DNA from: Novosphingobium profundi
GTDB taxonomy: Bacteria; Pseudomonadota; Alphaproteobacteria; Sphingomonadales; Sphingomonadaceae
DNA: 64,000 nt
Direction of reading: 5' to 3'
NCBI RefSeq assembly: GCF_020524485.1
Contig: NZ_JAIVLF010000001.1
Location: 434,001-498,000, forward strand
The notes under the pieces were generated by a model that saw only the letters and a list, made by a program, of their open reading frames with translations, had not been told where the DNA came from and made no database searches. Numbering within the stretch: position 1 is the stretch's first letter; every line of letters begins with the position of its first letter. Position numbers and translations under genes: made by a program. Of the stretch, positions 6,255-22,717 are shown piece by piece.

Positions 6255-7282
6255 GCCGCGTCCGGTGTATCGGTGTCCTCGCTCCGGACCGGCGGCGGGG
6301 CGCCGACATGTTCCTCCCCGCGCGCACGGGCGAGAAGCTGCTGGCGCTGGCGTTCGCGGTAGCGTTCGCGCTGCTCGTCGGTGCGCTCGTCGTGGCAGTG
6401 CGGGCAGGCGACGCCTTCCTCGAACAGCGGGGAGGCGCGGTCTTCAGCGTTCAGTGGAAGGCGGCAGGCGTGGCACAGCGTGTAGTCGCCTTGCAGCAGC
6501 CCGTGGCCGACCGAGACGCGGTTGTCGAAGACGAAGCATTCGCCTTCCCACAGGCTGTTCTCGGGCGCGACGGTCTCCAGGTATTTCAGGATGCCGCCCT
6601 TGAGGTGGTAGACCTCGTCCACGCCCTCCTGCTTGAGGAACGCGGTGGACTTTTCGCAGCGGATGCCGCCTGTGCAGAACATGGCGACCTTCGGTGCGTC
6701 CTTGCCTTCGCCCAGGAGCTTGGCGCGCTGTTCGCGAAACCAGCCCGGAAATTCGCGGAAGGAAGCGGTCTCGGGATCGATCGCGCCCTTGAAGGTGCCG
6801 ATCGCCACTTCGTAATCGTTGCGCGTGTCGATCAGGATCGTGTCCGGATCGGAAATGAGATCGTTCCAGTCCTCGGGCGCCACGTAGGTGCCGACAGTGG
6901 CGAGGGGATCGGTGCCCGGCTCGCCCATGGTCACGATCTCGTTCTTGAGGCGCACCTTCATGCGCAGGAACGGCATTTCGCGTGCGCCCGAGAACTTGAC
7001 GTCGAGATCCGCGCAGCCCGGCAGCGCGCGGACATGCGCGATGACCCGCTCAATCCCCGAGCGCGTGCCCGCGATGGTGCCGTTGATGCCTTCGTGCGCG
7101 AGCAGCAACGTGCCGCGAATGCCCTCCTCCTCACACAGCGCGGCAAGCGGTGCGCGCAGGGCGGCATGATCGGCAAAGGGCGCGAACTGGTAGAGCGCGG
7201 CGACGCAGACCGGCGCGTTGTGCGCGGCGGTGGGATGCTCGCGCTGGGAAAGATCGGAAGTGCTCGTCATGCGCGGCCCCAT
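6251..7282 (-). CDS. trhO: tRNA uridine-34 hydroxylase TrhO (rhodanese-like, YceA family)
   Basis: Homologue of TrhO/YceA, the oxygen-dependent enzyme that forms 5-hydroxyuridine at tRNA position 34. It has the family N-terminal domain ([14 protein letters not shown] at about 60-72), a central rhodanese domain with IDTRNDYE and the catalytic loop [10 protein letters not shown] (Cys about 203), and a C-terminal Cys-rich tail ([17 protein letters not shown]), all features of the family. Length is 343 residues, or 339 if translation begins at the second ATG at 7270; neither has a strong ribosome-binding site. It is the first gene of a two-gene unit with the GST gene. Confidence 0.92.
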
Positions 7283-8645: not shown

Positions 8646-10322
8646 CTACCTGCGACGGCTGCGAAGTGCAACCATGGAAAGGGAAAGAAGCGAAAGAATG
8701 CCTGCCAGCGCAAGCGGGATGGCGTTGCCCAGGCGCGCAAAAAGAGTGGGTTCGTGGGCGGGCGGGATGAAACCGTCGAGCCGTCCGGCAGTGTGGCGCG
8801 GCACGAATTTGCGCACGATCCCGTCCGCGTCGATCACCGCGCTGATGCCGGTGGTAGTTGCGCGCAGGACCGGGAGGCCTTCCTCAAGCGCGCGCAGGCG
8901 TGCCTGCGCCAGATGCTGCGGGGGCCCCCAGGCGCCGAACCAGCCATCGTTGGACGGGTTGAAGATGTAGTCGGGCCGGTGCGCAGGGTCGACCACGGCG
9001 CCTGAGAAGACGATCTCGTAGCAGATCTGCACGCCCGCCCGGCCGTAACGGCCAAGGTCCAGTGTGCGGGCGCCGGGACCGGGCCAGAAATCGAGCGTGC
9101 CGGGGACGAGGCGGGAGAGACCGATCGGCTCGAGCAGGCCGCGCAAGGGGAGGTATTCGCCAAAGGGCACCAGGTGCGCCTTGGAATAGCTGGCGAGGAT
9201 ATCGCCGCCCCCGTCGAGCACGGTGACCGAATTTCGCGCGGCAAGGTTGTCCTCGCCCTTCATCACCAGGTCGACCGCGCCGGTCATCAGGCGGCTGTAG
9301 GGGCCGATGACGCGCCCGATACGCTCGCGCGAGAGCTTCGGGTCTCCGGCATAGGTGAACATGCGGTAGACGTAGGGGGGATAACCGTCGCGGATGTAGT
9401 CCCCCAGGCCCGACTCGGGCCAGAAGACCATGCGGCGGCGGCCCGGAACCTGCGGCAGCGAGAGCCGGGCAAGCTTGATGAAACTGGCCTCGAACTGGCG
9501 CGGATCGTCGATGAACTCCTGCCGGATATCGGGCTGGACGAGGGTGTAGCGCACCGTGCCCTCCGCCCGGTGCGCCCAGGGATCGGGGAGGCTGAGCAAG
9601 GTGGCAAGCGCGCCCAGGATCGCGAGGGGAAGAAGGGCGCAGGCAAGGCGTCCCACTGTTTCGCGCGGCGCGGCGAGCCGCATGAAGATGCCGGGTAGGG
9701 CGGCCAGGAGGCACAGCAGGCCGGAGAGGCCGTAGCTGCCGATCCACGGCGAGAGCAGCGCCAGTCCGCGGCTCTTGAACGAGCCCAGGAGGGCAATGCC
9801 AAGCGGGTTCCAGGCAAAGCCGGTGAAGAGCCAGCCGCGCAGCCATTCGCTCACGATCCAGGTCGCCGCGAAGGCGAGCGCCAGCGGGAGGAAGGGCAGC
9901 GAGGGGCGCGTGTCCGTTTCGGGTGGCGGCGCGGGGATGCGACGCTGGACGAGCAGGCGTGCGGTCAGGCAGGCAAGAGCCGGGAACAGGGCGAGGTAGG
10001 TCGCGAGCAGGACCACCGCGATGCCGCCGAGCCAGGCGGGCATATTGGCCTGATAGGTGAAGGCCGTGGCGATCCAGTTGTTGCCGAGCGCGAAGTGCCC
10101 GAGGCCGAAGAACCAGCCCAGCGCAAAGGCTTCGCGGGGCCTGGGGCTGCGGACCACCAGTTCCAGCAGAACTGCGATGCCCAAGAGCGTCAGGGGCCAG
10201 AGCGCGAGCGGCTGGAAGCCGCAGGCGGCTGCGGCGCCAGCGGCAAGGGCCGGAATGCGGGGGGAGCGCCAGAGCGCATGAAGGCGTCGTGGAGAGGACG
10301 CGTCGTGCCGAGGGGAAGCCAT
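8646..10322 (-). CDS. lnt: Apolipoprotein N-acyltransferase
   Basis: Inner-membrane enzyme that adds the third acyl chain to the N-terminal Cys of lipoproteins, completing their maturation before Lol sorting. At 558 residues it has the expected plan: several hydrophobic helices in the first ~215 residues, then a periplasmic nitrilase-type domain with WPESGLGDYI (catalytic Glu), KAHLVPFGEYLPLR (Lys) and QICYEIVF (Cys), and a final membrane helix at about 530-550. The order lnt-metK is common in alphaproteobacteria. Confidence 0.97.
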   Translation of the reverse strand: MASPRHDASSPRRLHALWRSPRIPALAAGAAAACGFQPLALWPLTLLGIAVLLELVVRSPRPREAFALGWFFGLGHFALGNNWIATAFTYQANMPAWLGGIAVVLLATYLALFPALACLTARLLVQRRIPAPPPETDTRPSLPFLPLALAFAATWIVSEWLRGWLFTGFAWNPLGIALLGSFKSRGLALLSPWIGSYGLSGLLCLLAALPGIFMRLAAPRETVGRLACALLPLAILGALATLLSLPDPWAHRAEGTVRYTLVQPDIRQEFIDDPRQFEASFIKLARLSLPQVPGRRRMVFWPESGLGDYIRDGYPPYVYRMFTYAGDPKLSRERIGRVIGPYSRLMTGAVDLVMKGEDNLAARNSVTVLDGGGDILASYSKAHLVPFGEYLPLRGLLEPIGLSRLVPGTLDFWPGPGARTLDLGRYGRAGVQICYEIVFSGAVVDPAHRPDYIFNPSNDGWFGAWGPPQHLAQARLRALEEGLPVLRATTTGISAVIDADGIVRKFVPRHTAGRLDGFIPPAHEPTLFARLGNAIPLALAGILSLLSLSMVALRSRRR

Positions 10323-17002: not shown

Positions 17003-17545
17003 ATGCGCATCGACATGATTCCCGTTGGGGACAATCCGCCGGAAAGTCTCAACGTCGTCATTGAGGTTCCCGTCGGCGGTGAACCCGTGAAGTACGAGTT
17101 CGACAAGGAGTCGGGTGCTCTTTACGTCGACCGCATCCTGCACACGCCGATGCGCTACCCGGCGAACTACGGTTTTGTGCCGCACACGCTTTCGCCCGAC
17201 GGCGATCCGCTCGACGCGCTGGTCATCGCGCGCTCGCCCTTCATTCCGGGCTGCGTCGTGCGCGCGCGTCCGATCGCGGTGCTCAACCTCGAGGACGAGC
17301 ATGGCGGCGACGAAAAGCTGCTGTGCGTACCGGTCGATTCAACTTTCCCTTACTATATCGACGTAAAGGAAAAGGCAGATCTTCCCGAGATCCTGCTGGC
17401 CCAGATCGAGCACTTCTTTACGCACTACAAGGACCTCGAAAAGGAAAAGTGGGTGCGCGTGGGCACCTGGGGCGGCGCAGCCGATGCGCGCCAGATCGTG
17501 CTCGAAGCGATCGAACGCTATGAAGAGTCGAAGGCCACGGCCTGA
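17003..17545 (+). CDS. ppa: Inorganic pyrophosphatase
   Basis: Soluble family I pyrophosphatase that hydrolyses PPi and so drives biosynthesis. It is 180 residues with the substrate and metal motifs RYPANYGFVPHT and the signature DGDPLDALV. AAGGA lies seven bases before the ATG at 17003. It is a monocistronic gene: a promoter-sized 198 bp region lies upstream, and a long imperfect inverted repeat follows the stop codon. Confidence 0.98.
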   Translation: MRIDMIPVGDNPPESLNVVIEVPVGGEPVKYEFDKESGALYVDRILHTPMRYPANYGFVPHTLSPDGDPLDALVIARSPFIPGCVVRARPIAVLNLEDEHGGDEKLLCVPVDSTFPYYIDVKEKADLPEILLAQIEHFFTHYKDLEKEKWVRVGTWGGAADARQIVLEAIERYEESKATA

Positions 17546-17667: not shown

Positions 17668-17994
17668 TCAGGCGGTGACGGTGAACACTTCCTCGTCGCT
17701 TTCGCGCGGCGGGGCCGGGTCGAAGTCGGGCAGGGGCTCAAACACCTCTTCGGTCACCTGGAGGTTGGAAAGTCCGTCAAGTTTGAAGTGCCCGAGGCGC
17801 CGTTCTTCCTCGCTGCGCCAGTTCTTGTTCGGGTTGAACGCGCTGAGGAACAGCTCGTCGTGGCGGCTGAACAGGCGGTGCGGGGCAAGCAGCATTTCGG
17901 TGCCGTTGTACTCGGCGCGGATGTGGCGCTTGAGGGCAATGGCCTCGATCAGCTTGCGCTCGTTCGTGGCGTCGGTCTGGGGTGCGGTCGGCAT
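17668..17994 (-). CDS. Small WYL-domain-like protein without a DNA-binding domain
   Basis: Orphan protein of 108 residues starting at the ATG at 17994. Residues ~10-80 (LIEAIALKRHIRAEYNGTEM, then LLAPHRLFSRHDELFLSAFN and GHFKLDGLSNLQV) follow the pattern of WYL domains: an Ala-rich first helix, a YNG turn, a Pro-His strand, and a final [FL]KLD strand. The Trp-Tyr-Leu core reads Leu-Phe-Leu. WYL domains usually follow a helix-turn-helix in transcription regulators and bind nucleic acid or nucleotides; here no HTH is present. The tail is acidic (DFDPAPPRESDEEVF). Function unknown; the fold assignment is by eye. Confidence 0.65.
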   Translation of the reverse strand: MPTAPQTDATNERKLIEAIALKRHIRAEYNGTEMLLAPHRLFSRHDELFLSAFNPNKNWRSEEERRLGHFKLDGLSNLQVTEEVFEPLPDFDPAPPRESDEEVFTVTA

Positions 17995-18511
17995 GGGGCG
18001 CCATAATGGGCAGGTATGGCCTGTGATACAAGCGGGAAAGGTGCTGCGAAGGCTGCAAGCGTGATGCCGTTTGCGATACCCGGCGTGCGCGGTATGCACG
18101 TGGTCGCCGGGATTTGTGCAGGTGCGCAGTAAATGTATACGAATACAGTCTGTGTGACTTATTTACCGCAAAAATAACTCCGATTACGGAAGTAAATGCC
18201 TTCTAAAGCATCTGCTTAACGACTCCTTAGAGATTATTCCCGATACCCTGCGGCAACGCAGCGAGGAATCGGTGCGGGATGCACATGCCCGGGGGGGTGT
18301 TTCACCCCGAGCGTGGCCGGATCTGGTCCGGCAGGCGGGGCCGCGTTGCGGTGAGCTGCCTGGTGATCTCGCGGATCTTCTTCGCGTCATGTTTGAACCC
18401 GATATCGCTTTTGGACGGGACACCACATGGCAGGAAATCGCGAGCCGTCCCCGGCTCTCGCCTGCCCGTGCTGGACGGTGCCGGAAGCGGGAGATGAAGT
18501 GCCGGCCAGTC
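17995..18511. other. 517 bp intergenic region between divergent genes, promoter-rich
   Basis: No convincing gene. A hairpin CCCGGCG/CGCCGGG lies at 18079-18111. An AT-rich stretch at about 18130-18240 is unlike the GC-rich surroundings and contains a CtrA-like motif. A frame open from 18272 joins the downstream PAS gene, but its translation is Arg/Pro-rich noise that the paralogue lacks. Confidence 0.6.
18216..18230 (+). promoter_or_regulatory. CtrA-like site TTAA-N7-TTAG upstream of first PAS/roadblock gene
   Basis: Reads TTAACGACTCCTTAG. It matches the alphaproteobacterial CtrA consensus TTAA-N7-TTAA with one mismatch. The spacer also contains a GACTC (GANTC, the CcrM methylation site). 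It lies in an AT-rich patch 282 bp before the start codon. The same variant recurs before the paralogue. Confidence 0.5.
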
Positions 18512-19450
18512 ATGACCGAGATCCAAGACCATACCGAGCGTCGCTTGCAGATTCAGGTCTACCAGGAGTGGGCGCGCGTGGCCAACGCCAAGCCGTTTCC
18601 CACCATGGAGGACATGGAGGAGGTCGCGCTCGAGGGGTTCCACGAGGACAGCGTGGTCCTGCAGATGACCGAGGACGCGATGGACCCCATCATCGCCTTC
18701 GTCGGGAGCAACCTGCGCCGGGACTGCGGGCAGGGCACGCGTATCGAGCGCTTGCCTGACGTGCCGGGACTGACGCTGCTCTCGCGCTTTACCGACACCT
18801 ACCTGCAGTGCGTCGCGAACCGGGCGCCGGTCGGTTTCGAGGCCTCCTTCATCAATTGCCTGGAGGAGAACGTGCACTACCGCGGAATCCTGCTGCCGAT
18901 CTCGAGCGATGGGCAGAACGTCGATACCGTCTGGGGTGTAACCAGCAGCAAGAGCGAACCATTGGCCGATTTCGCCACCGTGGCCGAGGAGCTCGAACTC
19001 GTTGACGAAGTGCCGACTGCGGCGCCTTCGAACGACAACGCCGCCGCCCAGGCGGCGGAGGCCAGGCTAACTGACGTGCCGAGTGCGGAGGCGCAGCGTC
19101 TGGCGCAAGGGCTGACCGCGTGCCGCGACATCGACGGCCTGGTCGGCCTTGCACTTGTCGATATCGCCGATGGCGCTGTTGGCGCGGAGTTGGCCTGCGC
19201 GGGTGATTTCGACTTGGCTGGCGTCGCCGCCAGCGGTGCCGAACTCATCCGCCTCAAGCGCGAAGTCATCGCCCAGTGCGGCCTGGCCGAGCGCTTCGAG
19301 GAAGCGATCGTCACGACCCGGCGCCAGTTCTGGCTGCTGCAACCCCTGGAAGGGGTGGAGGACCTGCTGGTGCTCGCCGCGCTCGACAGGGACCGCGGCA
19401 ACCTTGCCAACGCGCGGCGGCAACTGGGCCAGGCGCTCATGACAGGCTGA
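18512..19450 (+). CDS. PAS_5-like / roadblock-like fusion protein 1
   Basis: Protein of 312 residues with no named function. Residues ~10-150 resemble the PAS_5 family of alphaproteobacterial PAS domains: VYQEWARVA, IIAFVGSNLRRDCGQGTRIERL, then RGILLPISSDG. A Pro/Ala/Asn-rich linker (~165-190) leads to a roadblock/LC7-like domain (~195-305) with DGLVGLALVDIADG at its start and LLVLAALDRDRGNLANARRQL at its end. The start (ATG at 18512) was chosen because it matches the start of the paralogue at 20256; an ATG at 18494 is possible. No transmembrane or output domain is visible. It could sense a ligand in the PAS domain and pass this on by roadblock dimerisation, which is inference. Confidence 0.75.
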   Translation: MTEIQDHTERRLQIQVYQEWARVANAKPFPTMEDMEEVALEGFHEDSVVLQMTEDAMDPIIAFVGSNLRRDCGQGTRIERLPDVPGLTLLSRFTDTYLQCVANRAPVGFEASFINCLEENVHYRGILLPISSDGQNVDTVWGVTSSKSEPLADFATVAEELELVDEVPTAAPSNDNAAAQAAEARLTDVPSAEAQRLAQGLTACRDIDGLVGLALVDIADGAVGAELACAGDFDLAGVAASGAELIRLKREVIAQCGLAERFEEAIVTTRRQFWLLQPLEGVEDLLVLAALDRDRGNLANARRQLGQALMTG

Positions 19451-19609
19451 TCCCGGGCCCCGCCCGACCTGCTGCTCGCGCGCACGTCCATCATTTTTTG
19501 ATTTTTCCGAAGGGTACCTGGCGGTGCCGGGCTCCAGCAGGGGCTCTGCGTCCCGCCATCCTGCACACGTCTTTCCCAGCCCACATCTCAATCCAGAAAG
19601 GGATATCCT

Positions 19610-19978
19610 ATGTCACTTGAAGCCAAGCTCAACGAATGCCTTGAAATCGATGGCGCAAAGGCCGTTGCGCTGGTCGATCTCGCCACCGGCATGGCGGTCG
19701 CGACCGCGGGCGATTCGAATGGTCTCGACCTCAACGTCGCGGCGGCAGGCAACACCAACGTGATGAAGGCCAAGCTGGCCACCATGAAGGAACTGGGTCT
19801 GGATGACGAAGTCGAGGACGTCCTCATCTCGCTCTCGAGCCAGTACCACATGATCCGCCCGCTCACCGACGATTCGGGCAAGGGTCTGTTCCTTTACCTC
19901 GTGCTCGACAAGGCCAAGGCGAACCTGGGCATGGCCCGCTTCAAGGTTTCGCGCATCGAGGCCGACCTCAAGGTCTGA
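19610..19978 (+). CDS. Stand-alone roadblock/LC7-like protein
   Basis: Protein of 122 residues made of a single roadblock-like domain: IDGAKAVALVDLATGMAVAT at the start, a central helix (VMKAKLATMKELGLDDEVEDV), then YHMIRPL and a hydrophobic strand with a final ANLGMARFKVSRIEADL helix. Roadblock proteins of the MglB type form dimers that regulate Ras-like GTPases; no such GTPase is encoded in this window. The C-terminal helix motif (NL..AR) is shared with the two flanking fusions, so the three may hetero-dimerise. AAGGGAT lies seven bases before the ATG. A clear terminator follows, so this gene ends a transcript. Confidence 0.8.
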   Translation: MSLEAKLNECLEIDGAKAVALVDLATGMAVATAGDSNGLDLNVAAAGNTNVMKAKLATMKELGLDDEVEDVLISLSSQYHMIRPLTDDSGKGLFLYLVLDKAKANLGMARFKVSRIEADLKV

Positions 19979-20018
19979 GCCTTCGCGCACGGCTGCGGGG
20001 CCCATGGTCCCGCTCTGC

Positions 20019-20053
20019 AAACCCCGGTCCACGGCAAGTTGGGCCGGGGTTTT
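20019..20053 (+). terminator. Rho-independent terminator after the roadblock gene
   Basis: AAACCCCGGTCC pairs with GGGCCGGGGTTTT across a ten-base loop, 40 nt after the stop codon, with a T-run. It separates this gene from the next PAS/roadblock gene, which therefore needs its own promoter. Confidence 0.85.
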
Positions 20054-20124
20054 GCATGTCTGGGGCCCTTGAAAACCGCCTTCTGATCGCCGGATGGTGA
20101 GAAAGTGTTCAATTTTACAGCGCT

Positions 20125-20139
20125 TTAAGTTGTATTTAG
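20125..20139 (+). promoter_or_regulatory. CtrA-like site TTAA-N7-TTAG upstream of second PAS/roadblock gene
   Basis: Reads TTAAGTTGTATTTAG, the same one-mismatch variant of the CtrA consensus as at 18216-18230. It is 116 bp before the start codon, in a short AT-rich island directly after the terminator of the preceding gene. Confidence 0.5.
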
Positions 20140-20255
20140 ACATTCCTGAGATAGCGTCCCAAGAATTGATCGGCGTGCGTGGGCACGCAGCGTCATGATC
20201 GTGGGGAACGTGGCGGTCCTTCGGGGCTGTGCGGTGGTATGGGGCGCAAGTCCGA

Positions 20256-21200
20256 ATGACGAGTGAAGACCAGGACCTTGTGGAGCGCCGGCTCCAGATG
20301 CAGGTCTACCATGAATGGGCTCGGCTGGCCCGGTCACGTCCCTATCCCGATTTTCAGGACATGGAGGATGGCGCTCTCGAGCCGTTCCGCGCGGATAGTG
20401 CGATCGTGCAGGTTCACGAGGACGGCGAGGTGCCGCATCTGACCTTCGTGGGGGCGAACCTGCGCCGGGATTGCGGGGAAGGGGCCCGGCTGGAGCGCCG
20501 CGATGATGTCCCGGCTGGAACCCTGCTGGCGCATCTCACCGAAAACTGCGGGCAATGCGTGTCCAATCGCTCGCCGATCTGGTTCGAGGCCGAGTTCGAC
20601 AACCGCCTTGGCGAAGCGGTAAAGGCGCGCGGCATCCTGCTGCCGGTGTCGAGCGACGGGGGGACTGTGGACATGGTCTGGTGCGCGGCAAGCTGCAGCA
20701 TCGAGGCGCGGGTGGAGCCTGTCGCGCCCTTGCCGATCCCACCGGCGCTCGCACAAGGGCAGGTCGTCCTCGAGGGTGAGGCACTCGCCGCAATGCAGGA
20801 TGATCCGGCCTTCCGCGCTTTGGTCGTCGAACTGGGCAAGCGGCTGGTCGCGGCGGCGGGGCTGGAGGGCCTGGTCGGCCTGGCGCTGGTTGCAACGGCC
20901 GGGGGCGAGGTGGTCTCGCAGCTGCGCCGCGGGCCCGGCTTCGACTTGCCGCGCACCGCGCAGTTCATGGCCGGACTGGCGCGGGCCGAAACGCAGGCGC
21001 TGGACTCAGGGCCAGATGCGGAGTGTGTCGAGCAGGTCGCGGTGACCACGGCCCGCCATGTCGCGTTCGCCCGTCCTCTGGGCGAGGTGCCCGGCCTCCT
21101 GGTGCTTGTCGCGCTCGATCGGGGGATGGTGAACCTGGCGAATGCGCGCATCGCCATGGCCCGGCTTGCTCGTGACCTCGATAGTGCGGGCGTTCGATAG
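20256..21200 (+). CDS. PAS_5-like / roadblock-like fusion protein 2
   Basis: Paralogue of the fusion at 18512 with the same plan in 314 residues. The PAS_5-like part (about 10-150) shares ERRLQ.QVY.EWAR, FVG.NLRRDCG.G.R.ER and RGILLP.SSDG with it, roughly half the positions by eye. The linker is Pro-rich (PLPIPPALAQG). The roadblock-like part (about 200-305) shares LVGLALV, VTT.R and LLVL.ALDR with NLANAR. The ATG at 20256 aligns with the paralogue start; the ribosome-binding site is weak. It has its own upstream CtrA-like motif and a downstream terminator, so it appears to be a separate transcript from the first two genes. Confidence 0.75.
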   Translation: MTSEDQDLVERRLQMQVYHEWARLARSRPYPDFQDMEDGALEPFRADSAIVQVHEDGEVPHLTFVGANLRRDCGEGARLERRDDVPAGTLLAHLTENCGQCVSNRSPIWFEAEFDNRLGEAVKARGILLPVSSDGGTVDMVWCAASCSIEARVEPVAPLPIPPALAQGQVVLEGEALAAMQDDPAFRALVVELGKRLVAAAGLEGLVGLALVATAGGEVVSQLRRGPGFDLPRTAQFMAGLARAETQALDSGPDAECVEQVAVTTARHVAFARPLGEVPGLLVLVALDRGMVNLANARIAMARLARDLDSAGVR

Positions 21201-21265: not shown

Positions 21266-22717
21266 TCAGGCGGGCTTCACGCCCATGCACAGGTACTTCA
21301 GCTCCATGTAGTCATCGAGCCCGTAGTGCGAGCCTTCGCGGCCCAGGCCCGACTGCTTGACGCCGCCGAAGGGGGCGACTTCGGTGGAGATGAGGCCGGT
21401 GTTGATACCCACCATGCCCGCTTCGAGCGCCTCGGCGACGCGCCACACGCGGCTCATGTCCGAGGCATAGAAGTAGCTGGCCAGACCGAACTCGGTGTCG
21501 TTGGCCATGGCGATGGCCTCGGCTTCCTCGGTGAAGCGGATGACACCGGCGAGCGGCCCGAAGGTTTCCTCGCGCGCGAGCAGCATGTCGGGCTTCACGT
21601 TGGCAACCACGGTGGGGTTGAAGTAGCTGCCGCCACGCTCGTTGCGCGAGCCGCCTGCCAGCACGGTCGCGCCGCCATCGACGGCGTCCTTGAGGTGTTC
21701 CTCGACCTTGGCGACGGCCTTTTCATCGACCAGCGGGCCGACTTCGGTGCCTTCGTCGAGACCGTAGCCCACCTTCATCGCCTTCACGCGCGCGGCCAGC
21801 TTCTCGACGAATTCGTCGTAGACGCCGTCCTGCACGTAGAAGCGGTTGGTGCACACGCAGGTCTGGCCGCCGTTGCGGAACTTGGAGATCATCGCGCCTT
21901 CGATGGCCGCGTCCACGTCGGCGTCGTCGAAGACGAGGAAAGGTGCGTTGCCGCCCAGCTCCATCGAGCACTTCTTGACGGTCTCGGCCGATTCCTTGAG
22001 GAGCTGGCGGCCGATCTCGGTCGATCCGGTGAAGGTGATCTTGGCGACCTTGGGGCTGCCTGTCAGGGTCGAGCCGATCTGCCCGGCGCTGCCCGTCACC
22101 ACGTTGACGACGCCTGCAGGAATGCCGGCTTTCTCGCACAGCGCGGCGATGGCGAGCGCGGAGTAGGGGGTCGCCGAGGCCGGCTTGATGACCATGGTGC
22201 AGCCCGCCGCGAGCGCGGGGCCCAGCTTGCGGGTGATCATCGCGTTGGGGAAGTTCCAGGGCGTGATCGCGCCGACAACGCCGACCGGCTGCTTGATGAC
22301 GACGATGCGGCGATCAGTCGCGTGGCCGGGGATAGTGTCGCCATAGGCGCGCTTGGCCTCTTCGCCGAACCATTCGATGAAGCTGGCGCCATAGGCGATC
22401 TCGCCCTTGCCTTCGGCGAGCGGCTTGCCCTGTTCACGGCTGAGCAGTTCGCCCAGGTCATCCTGCGCGTCCATCATCAGTTCGTAGAGCTTGCGCAGGA
22501 TCTTCGAGCGCTCGCCCGCGGTCTTGGCGCGCCAGGCCGGAAGCGCGGCTTCGGCGGCGTCGATGGCGCGGCTGGTCTCGTCCGAACCCATTTTGGGGAC
22601 CGTGCCCATGACCTCGCCGGTGCCCGGGTTGGTCACCTCGAGCGTCGCGCCCGAATCCGCATCGCACCACTTTCCATCGATATAGCACTGCTGTTTCAGG
22701 AAATCGGAATAAGCCAT
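21266..22717 (-). CDS. gabD: NAD(P)-dependent succinate-semialdehyde dehydrogenase
   Basis: Aldehyde dehydrogenase superfamily enzyme of 483 residues oxidising succinate semialdehyde to succinate, the last step of the GABA shunt. It has the GabD-type landmarks: ITPWNFPNAMITRK, the FTGSTEIGRQLL nucleotide loop, MELGGNAPFLVFDDADVD with the general-base Glu, and GQTCVCTNRFYVQDG with the nucleophilic Cys (first Cys). The ATG at 22717 has AAGAGGA upstream. A second gene of the same type is at 55544-57034. The 204 bp between it and the GNAT gene upstream shows no gene and presumably holds its promoter. Confidence 0.93.
   Translation of the reverse strand: MAYSDFLKQQCYIDGKWCDADSGATLEVTNPGTGEVMGTVPKMGSDETSRAIDAAEAALPAWRAKTAGERSKILRKLYELMMDAQDDLGELLSREQGKPLAEGKGEIAYGASFIEWFGEEAKRAYGDTIPGHATDRRIVVIKQPVGVVGAITPWNFPNAMITRKLGPALAAGCTMVIKPASATPYSALAIAALCEKAGIPAGVVNVVTGSAGQIGSTLTGSPKVAKITFTGSTEIGRQLLKESAETVKKCSMELGGNAPFLVFDDADVDAAIEGAMISKFRNGGQTCVCTNRFYVQDGVYDEFVEKLAARVKAMKVGYGLDEGTEVGPLVDEKAVAKVEEHLKDAVDGGATVLAGGSRNERGGSYFNPTVVANVKPDMLLAREETFGPLAGVIRFTEEAEAIAMANDTEFGLASYFYASDMSRVWRVAEALEAGMVGINTGLISTEVAPFGGVKQSGLGREGSHYGLDDYMELKYLCMGVKPA

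Follow-up and report, generated by a model that had tools for sequence, protein, structure and literature searches.

A predicted PAS_5-like/roadblock gene trio in Novosphingobium profundi and its place in a larger family of gene arrangements

Organisation of the gene cluster

The window, that is, the whole stretch of DNA analysed here, comprises 64,000 nucleotides from Novosphingobium profundi. A preliminary description of this DNA had proposed two fusion genes flanking a stand-alone roadblock gene, and three forward-strand open reading frames were located where this layout placed them. Gene A (18512–19450) encodes 312 residues with a PAS_5-like part at approximately residues 9–150, a linker modelled with low confidence (151–190) and a divergent roadblock part (192–312). 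Gene B (19610–19978; 122 residues) encodes a free-standing roadblock protein of a conserved type. Gene C (20256–21200; 314 residues) is the sister of A and, judged by its sequence, combines a PAS_5-like part with a divergent roadblock-like C-terminus. A and C are 45% identical and do share the motifs reported previously: ERRLQ and QVY.EWAR at the N-terminus, NLANAR at the C-terminus.

The intergenic gaps are 159 nt between A and B and 277 nt between B and C. A Shine-Dalgarno-like AAAGGGA was read 6 nt 5' of the ATG of B (19597–19603, forward strand) and is identical in Novosphingobium sp. BW1. A hairpin of high G+C content with a short run of T lies 3' of B (20020–20051, forward strand) and is a possible terminator; none was called there in a sequence-element scan of the cluster. 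A promoter-like site 5' of C (20137–20166, forward strand), defined by consensus matching, agrees with the consensus in 9 of 12 bases and was the one site found, as compared with a mean of 0.3 in shuffled sequences. Taken together, hairpin and promoter-like site hint that C may be transcribed separately. The upstream side of the cluster carries an inorganic-pyrophosphatase-like gene (17003–17545) and, between this and A, a small gene on the reverse strand (17668–18099). An aldehyde-dehydrogenase-like gene (21266–22717, reverse strand) lies downstream of C. Both names derive from reading the translations.

Predicted fold of the roadblock parts

Predicted structures and profile comparisons assign the roadblock fold to B and to the C-terminal third of A. 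The predicted order of elements is alpha-beta-beta-alpha-beta-beta-beta-alpha, matching solved roadblock structures, and the closest folds returned by structure comparison of the prediction include MglB and the Ragulator roadblocks. The roadblock assignment made earlier is upheld at this level. B is homologous to the C-terminus of A, and the C-terminus of C can be placed as the roadblock partner in the fusion layout by its alignment with A at the identity given above.

Sequence models did not recognise these domains. A, B and C had no match to Robl_LC7 (PF03259; cut-off 23 bits) at E ≤ 10 and the genome contained none; B matched no Pfam model at all at E ≤ 10, and the NCBIfam models did not recognise the proteins. 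A sequence search of the PDB returned no relative, just weak rows with E-values from 0.18 to 0.46. Matches to LAMTOR5 or DUF2173 were obtained with some B-type relatives, in each case below the cut-off.

The alignment of 21 B-type members from Novosphingobium and Actinomycetota contains 36 invariant columns. The longest invariant run, AAAGNT, lies in helix 2 (residues 41–61 of B) and is present in all 21 aligned members; it is altered in three more distant B-type copies (P0131, P0133 and P0134). The corresponding stretch in A, VAASGA, keeps mostly small residues, and in C the motif is lost (TAQFMA). The occurrence of TAQFMA in C and AAAGNT in B fits unequal partners.

The PAS-like N-termini

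Against PAS_5 (PF07310; cut-off 22 bits) A scored 12.8 bits (E 0.11) and C 13.6 bits (E 0.063), each over nearly the full length of the domain. As these scores are below the cut-off, the N-termini are termed PAS_5-like. A paralogue in the same genome, L003 (C6, approximately 476957–477535), has 44% identity with A across 140 residues and passes with 24.5 bits. The PAS_5-like character claimed for A and C in the preliminary description is thus supported by way of this paralogue, A and C themselves scoring too low. L003 carries its PAS_5 domain in a long protein in which no roadblock part was recognised, and long frames with an L003-like match occur in most of the relatives searched.

The PAS identity of A rests on Pfam and homology; the fold-search matches for A cover the roadblock part alone. 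Two of the 32 proteins in the fusion alignment match PAS_5 at E ≤ 0.1, and seven of ten related domains had no match to it at this threshold. A sensor-roadblock layout like that of HGbRL (see below) was found for A from the model together with the N-terminal homology, and for C from the alignment with A. The soluble sensory fusion that had been proposed, a predicted PAS_5-like N-terminus joined to a predicted roadblock, is in agreement with these data.

Conservation and distribution

The complete trio was encountered in two genomes only, that of N. profundi and that of Novosphingobium sp. BW1 (L013). The latter keeps the gene order, with identities of 93% for A, 98% for B and 92% for C. The dN/dS values relative to BW1 are 0.146 for A, 0.035 for B, the most conserved of the three, and 0.154 for C, and A and C align with their counterparts without indels. 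Judged from these comparisons, A, B and C are intact in BW1 and under purifying selection. One relative of C belongs to Novosphingobium sp. MBES04. In metagenome data, A-like P0125 and B-like P0007 have their longest contig in common (2312 bases), as do A-like P0126 and B-like P0008 (3675 bases); A-like and B-like genes are probably neighbours on these two contigs. The expectation that the three genes are conserved together is therefore borne out in part: the trio as such was found in two genomes only, while these probable pairs occur and a B-type roadblock with a PAS-type domain recurs in other arrangements.

In alphaproteobacteria the B type appears patchy. It was found in 2 of 197 genomes of relatives (the N. 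profundi genome and G002, the latter with an Aer-paired copy), 3 of 385 in a class sample, 12 of 397 in a family sample and 5 of 396 in an order sample; these samples overlap and each contains the N. profundi genome. In named genomes, out of 588 candidate stretches at least 379 code for a relative of B. The best 80 of these comprise one from Novosphingobium and 79 from Actinomycetota, a proportion that is no measure of prevalence, and the actinobacterial proteins among them are 52–66% identical to B. In the protein search for B homologues 120 of 304 matches were listed. Plasmids contributed 28 matching records; among the 20 listed, it was the roadblock end that matched, and the plasmid matches listed include Deinococcus, Agarilytica, Acinetobacter and Comamonas. 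A profile of A and C (A2) matched 83 of 98 genomes of the order, that of N. profundi included, mostly over the PAS part; G017 and G067 match up to positions 244 and 249 of 309.

Other arrangements of the B-type roadblock

Fusions of a PAS_5-like with a roadblock part number at least 48 proteins: among the 120 of 384 matches listed, 50 cover most of the query, and two of these are orthologues of C. One fusion (P0135) belongs to Alteraurantiacibacter aquimixticola (G440). A PAS gene adjoins a B-type gene in five further loci (L124, L129 and L151–L153), from the N. profundi genome (C6), G002, G934, G753 and G952; from a motif, we take these PAS genes to be Aer-like. Two of them were compared with Pfam PAS: L124 matched just at the cut-off and L129 below it. 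G870 has a PAS_5-roadblock fusion followed by an Aer-like gene, with a PAS match below the cut-off. In G448, an alphaproteobacterium of another family, a PAS_9 gene (E 8e-11) is located 14 nt 3' of the B-type gene, the pair lying at 9353–10338 of L134; with its motif GSNCRFMQG it is presumably LOV-like. At L152, a MEKHLA-domain gene (6591–7073; E 3e-48) lies on the opposite strand just after the Aer-like PAS/B-type pair.

The B-type roadblock is also joined to other input domains. Among the 120 matches listed, 37 carry both the receiver and the DUF4388 model of Pfam and five more carry DUF4388 (PATAN) alone. The DUF4388 matches listed include Myxococcaceae, Kofleriaceae and Herpetosiphonaceae and are 43–58% identical to the G440 fusion; the roadblock is C-terminal in the seven receiver-DUF4388 rows inspected. 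In the receiver-DUF4388 proteins P0194–P0254, precomputed Pfam annotation shows no model over the B-type roadblock domain, despite 43–58% identity to the query.

Of the 79 actinobacterial loci (L014–L092), 42 contain a DUF4388-like gene, 36 a Robl_LC7-type gene and 37 at least two B-type genes, and 23 combine all three features; gene calls in these and the other loci are crude (open reading frames ranked by codon-position GC). When three actinobacterial members of each kind were compared with Pfam, DUF4388 was below the cut-off in all three and Robl_LC7 above it in all three. A four-gene set of B-type, DUF4388-like, Robl_LC7 and B-type genes is seen, for example, in L020 (5536–8336) and L077 (6351–8366). 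One of the three DUF4388-like proteins tested gave a sub-threshold winged-helix match.

The B-type roadblock is thus repeatedly linked to PAS-type domains in several arrangements, and the parts of the trio belong to a larger family of arrangements.

Origin of the trio

By path length, the neighbours of B in the roadblock tree are first its metagenome orthologue P0008 and then the roadblocks of the fusions P0138, P0143 and G870; the smallest well-supported set containing B consists of B and P0008, and the backbone is open there. A clade with a support of 100/99 in the PAS tree unites A, C, P0125 and P0126 with G870, P0138, P0143, P0139, P0141 and P0149; A and C are sisters (98/83). Both halves point to one fusion group, with firm support on the PAS side and weak support on the roadblock side. 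Since the trees put the same fusions closest to B and to the PAS halves of A and C, the trio probably arose from such a PAS_5-roadblock gene, which was split into A and B, with A duplicated to give C. The C-termini of A and C lie on very long branches of the roadblock tree (5.28 for C), and owing to this divergence their exact origin is unsure.

A possible internal start in the fusions

A methionine is present within three residues of the position of Met1 of B in 43 of the 48 listed fusions, which are related and hence not independent, and 26 of the 43 have arginine at −4. The remaining five lack a methionine there; one has valine. Five fusion genes were read as DNA (G440, G982, G870, G637 and G707). 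Two of them have a strong Shine-Dalgarno sequence before the internal methionine, AGGAGA ATAATC ATG in G440 and TTAGGAG CATTT ATG in G982, both at the B-start position. The two genes carry the same DNA signal but translate it in different frames, one as RR and the other as LGA. G870 has just GGAG at 10 nt from the internal methionine, and G637 and G707 have no methionine at the B-start position. The three methionine-bearing loci contain 328 internal ATGs, of which four follow an AGGAG or GGAGG; two of these four are the G440 and G982 cases. Reading of A and C revealed no such internal start.

These observations are suggestive of an internal start. Methionine and Shine-Dalgarno sequence could have survived from an earlier two-gene operon, or one fusion gene may make both tethered and free subunits; an ancestral PAS_5-roadblock gene may have done so from one message. 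It is conceivable, if somewhat short of probable, that in the wider PAS_5-roadblock family a nested gene gives rise both to a PAS-tethered roadblock and, by way of an internal ribosome-binding site, to a free roadblock with the same start as B, the two being made together and pairing as a signal-gated scaffold, with the trio being a split and duplicated version. Should the internal start be real, it would let a single gene supply an asymmetric sensory dimer in compact form.

Proposed function and alternatives

The data directly support the layout, the fold models of B and of the C-terminus of A, the homology between B and A, the PAS linkage and the tree positions. Our tentative reading, which we would put at a little less than even, is that the cluster acts as a soluble sensory switch: sensing at the PAS part would alter the pairing of A or C with B, thereby exposing or hiding the conserved helix-2 face of B to a partner. 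The roadblock parts would dimerise, with A and C pairing with B, and the PAS part would bind a ligand or cofactor and control this pairing. Helix 2 would be the docking face of B, and pairing with A or C would change this face. In the MglB-MglA complex (PMC6785124), MglA binds to the alpha2 helices of dimeric MglB; by analogy, B with AAAGNT in its helix 2 may offer such a docking face. Of the interpretation offered by the preliminary description, the predicted roadblock folds, the PAS_5-like N-termini, the soluble sensory layout and the plausibility of the pairing mechanism were retained; co-conservation gave a mixed picture, and the statement that no such system had been described was too broad.

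An alternative role would be that of a GAP-type regulator, with the roadblock dimer acting on a Ras-like GTPase encoded elsewhere, as with MglB and CvnB, and the PAS part setting the activity. The closest folds, among them MglB and the Ragulator roadblocks, are in line with this, and so is the finding (PMC4316618) that 328 of 749 MglB homologues are orphans with no MglA neighbour. In the sphingomonad genus g342, all seven genomes with a strong match to a CvnD-like GTPase (188 aa; ATP_bind_1, E 7e-13) have it roughly 0.5 kb away from a B-type gene, and two of four loci read (L154 and L157) have a roadblock-like gene between the two, the L154 copy matching Robl_LC7 (4e-6). However, strong matches to this GTPase were confined to 7 of the 14 genomes searched, all g342, and the N. 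profundi genome had none. No MglA/CvnD-type GTPase scored above cut-off in that genome, nor was one recognised adjoining the cluster, though a divergent GTPase may have escaped these models. PF03029 gave nothing above cut-off there (G000), and G753 and G934 pass. PF08477 likewise gave nothing above cut-off in the N. profundi genome, this being a poor test as the g342 GTPase also falls below. Most sub-threshold GTPase rows of the genome lie in frames of more than 300 aa and so look to us like housekeeping GTPases; one PF08477 row (E 0.17) is in a 222-aa frame. We consider this role doubtful for the trio.

In L154 (5736–8436) and L157 (5625–8268) of g342 there is an operon-like run of a protein of about 400 aa, the 188-aa GTPase, a roadblock protein and a B-type roadblock. 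The ~400-aa protein of L154 has no clear Pfam match. By its gene content the run resembles a conservon set without a recognised histidine kinase.

The PAS_5-like part could instead be the effector portion, with a Caulobacter-like role at the pole or in cell-cycle control, and the roadblock would serve just as a dimeriser or tether. MopJ is described (PMC4432633) as a single-domain PAS_5 protein controlling motility and CtrA, and PAS_5-like proteins are widespread in the order (83 of 98 genomes, that of N. profundi included). A mere dimeriser, however, would hardly have needed the high conservation of B, which has the lowest dN/dS of the three (0.035) and is 52–66% identical to actinobacterial proteins among the best 80 of at least 379 relatives; we regard this as unlikely. 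That A and C are old fusions with drifting roadblock parts and only B is functional is very improbable: the very long branches, by which the C-termini of A and C could be decaying, the helix-2 motif lost in C and the narrow distribution are compatible with it, but a dN/dS of about 0.15 for A and C over their whole length and the lack of indels relative to BW1 argue against plain decay.

The arrangements described here tie a conserved bacterial roadblock type unrecognised by Pfam to sensor domains across several lineages, so that a role open to testing can be proposed for orphan roadblock proteins, which lack an MglA partner.

Comparison with known systems

With MglB and CvnB the trio has in common the predicted roadblock fold of B and the C-terminus of A, B being small and stand-alone as well. 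It differs in having no Robl_LC7 match at E ≤ 10, no MglA/CvnD-type GTPase recognised alongside or above cut-off in the genome, and a fusion to PAS_5-like domains in A and C. MopJ of Caulobacter is likewise alphaproteobacterial and has a PAS_5-type domain; it has no roadblock domain (PMC4432633), and it is set beside A and C by description. The archaeal NitrOD3, likened here by description, is related to Roadblock/LC7 and is a response-regulator output, but is archaeal and coupled to a receiver domain (PMC5847659). The receiver-DUF4388 proteins and the actinobacterial operons contain the same B-type roadblock with other input domains; a literature search found no paper in which DUF4388 is joined with a roadblock.

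No paper on PAS-roadblock proteins was recognised among the open-licence papers listed by literature searches, and to this extent the earlier statement that no system with this layout is described holds. It is too broad in that at least 48 PAS_5-roadblock fusions are present in the protein database and that a globin-roadblock protein, HGbRL of Methylacidiphilum, is in print (PMC4476040). HGbRL carries a globin instead of PAS_5 and is not described there as flanking a free roadblock gene. Like A and C, it joins an N-terminal sensor to a C-terminal roadblock; its genome also has a gene for a single-domain roadblock protein, which is adjoined by an MglA-like gene.
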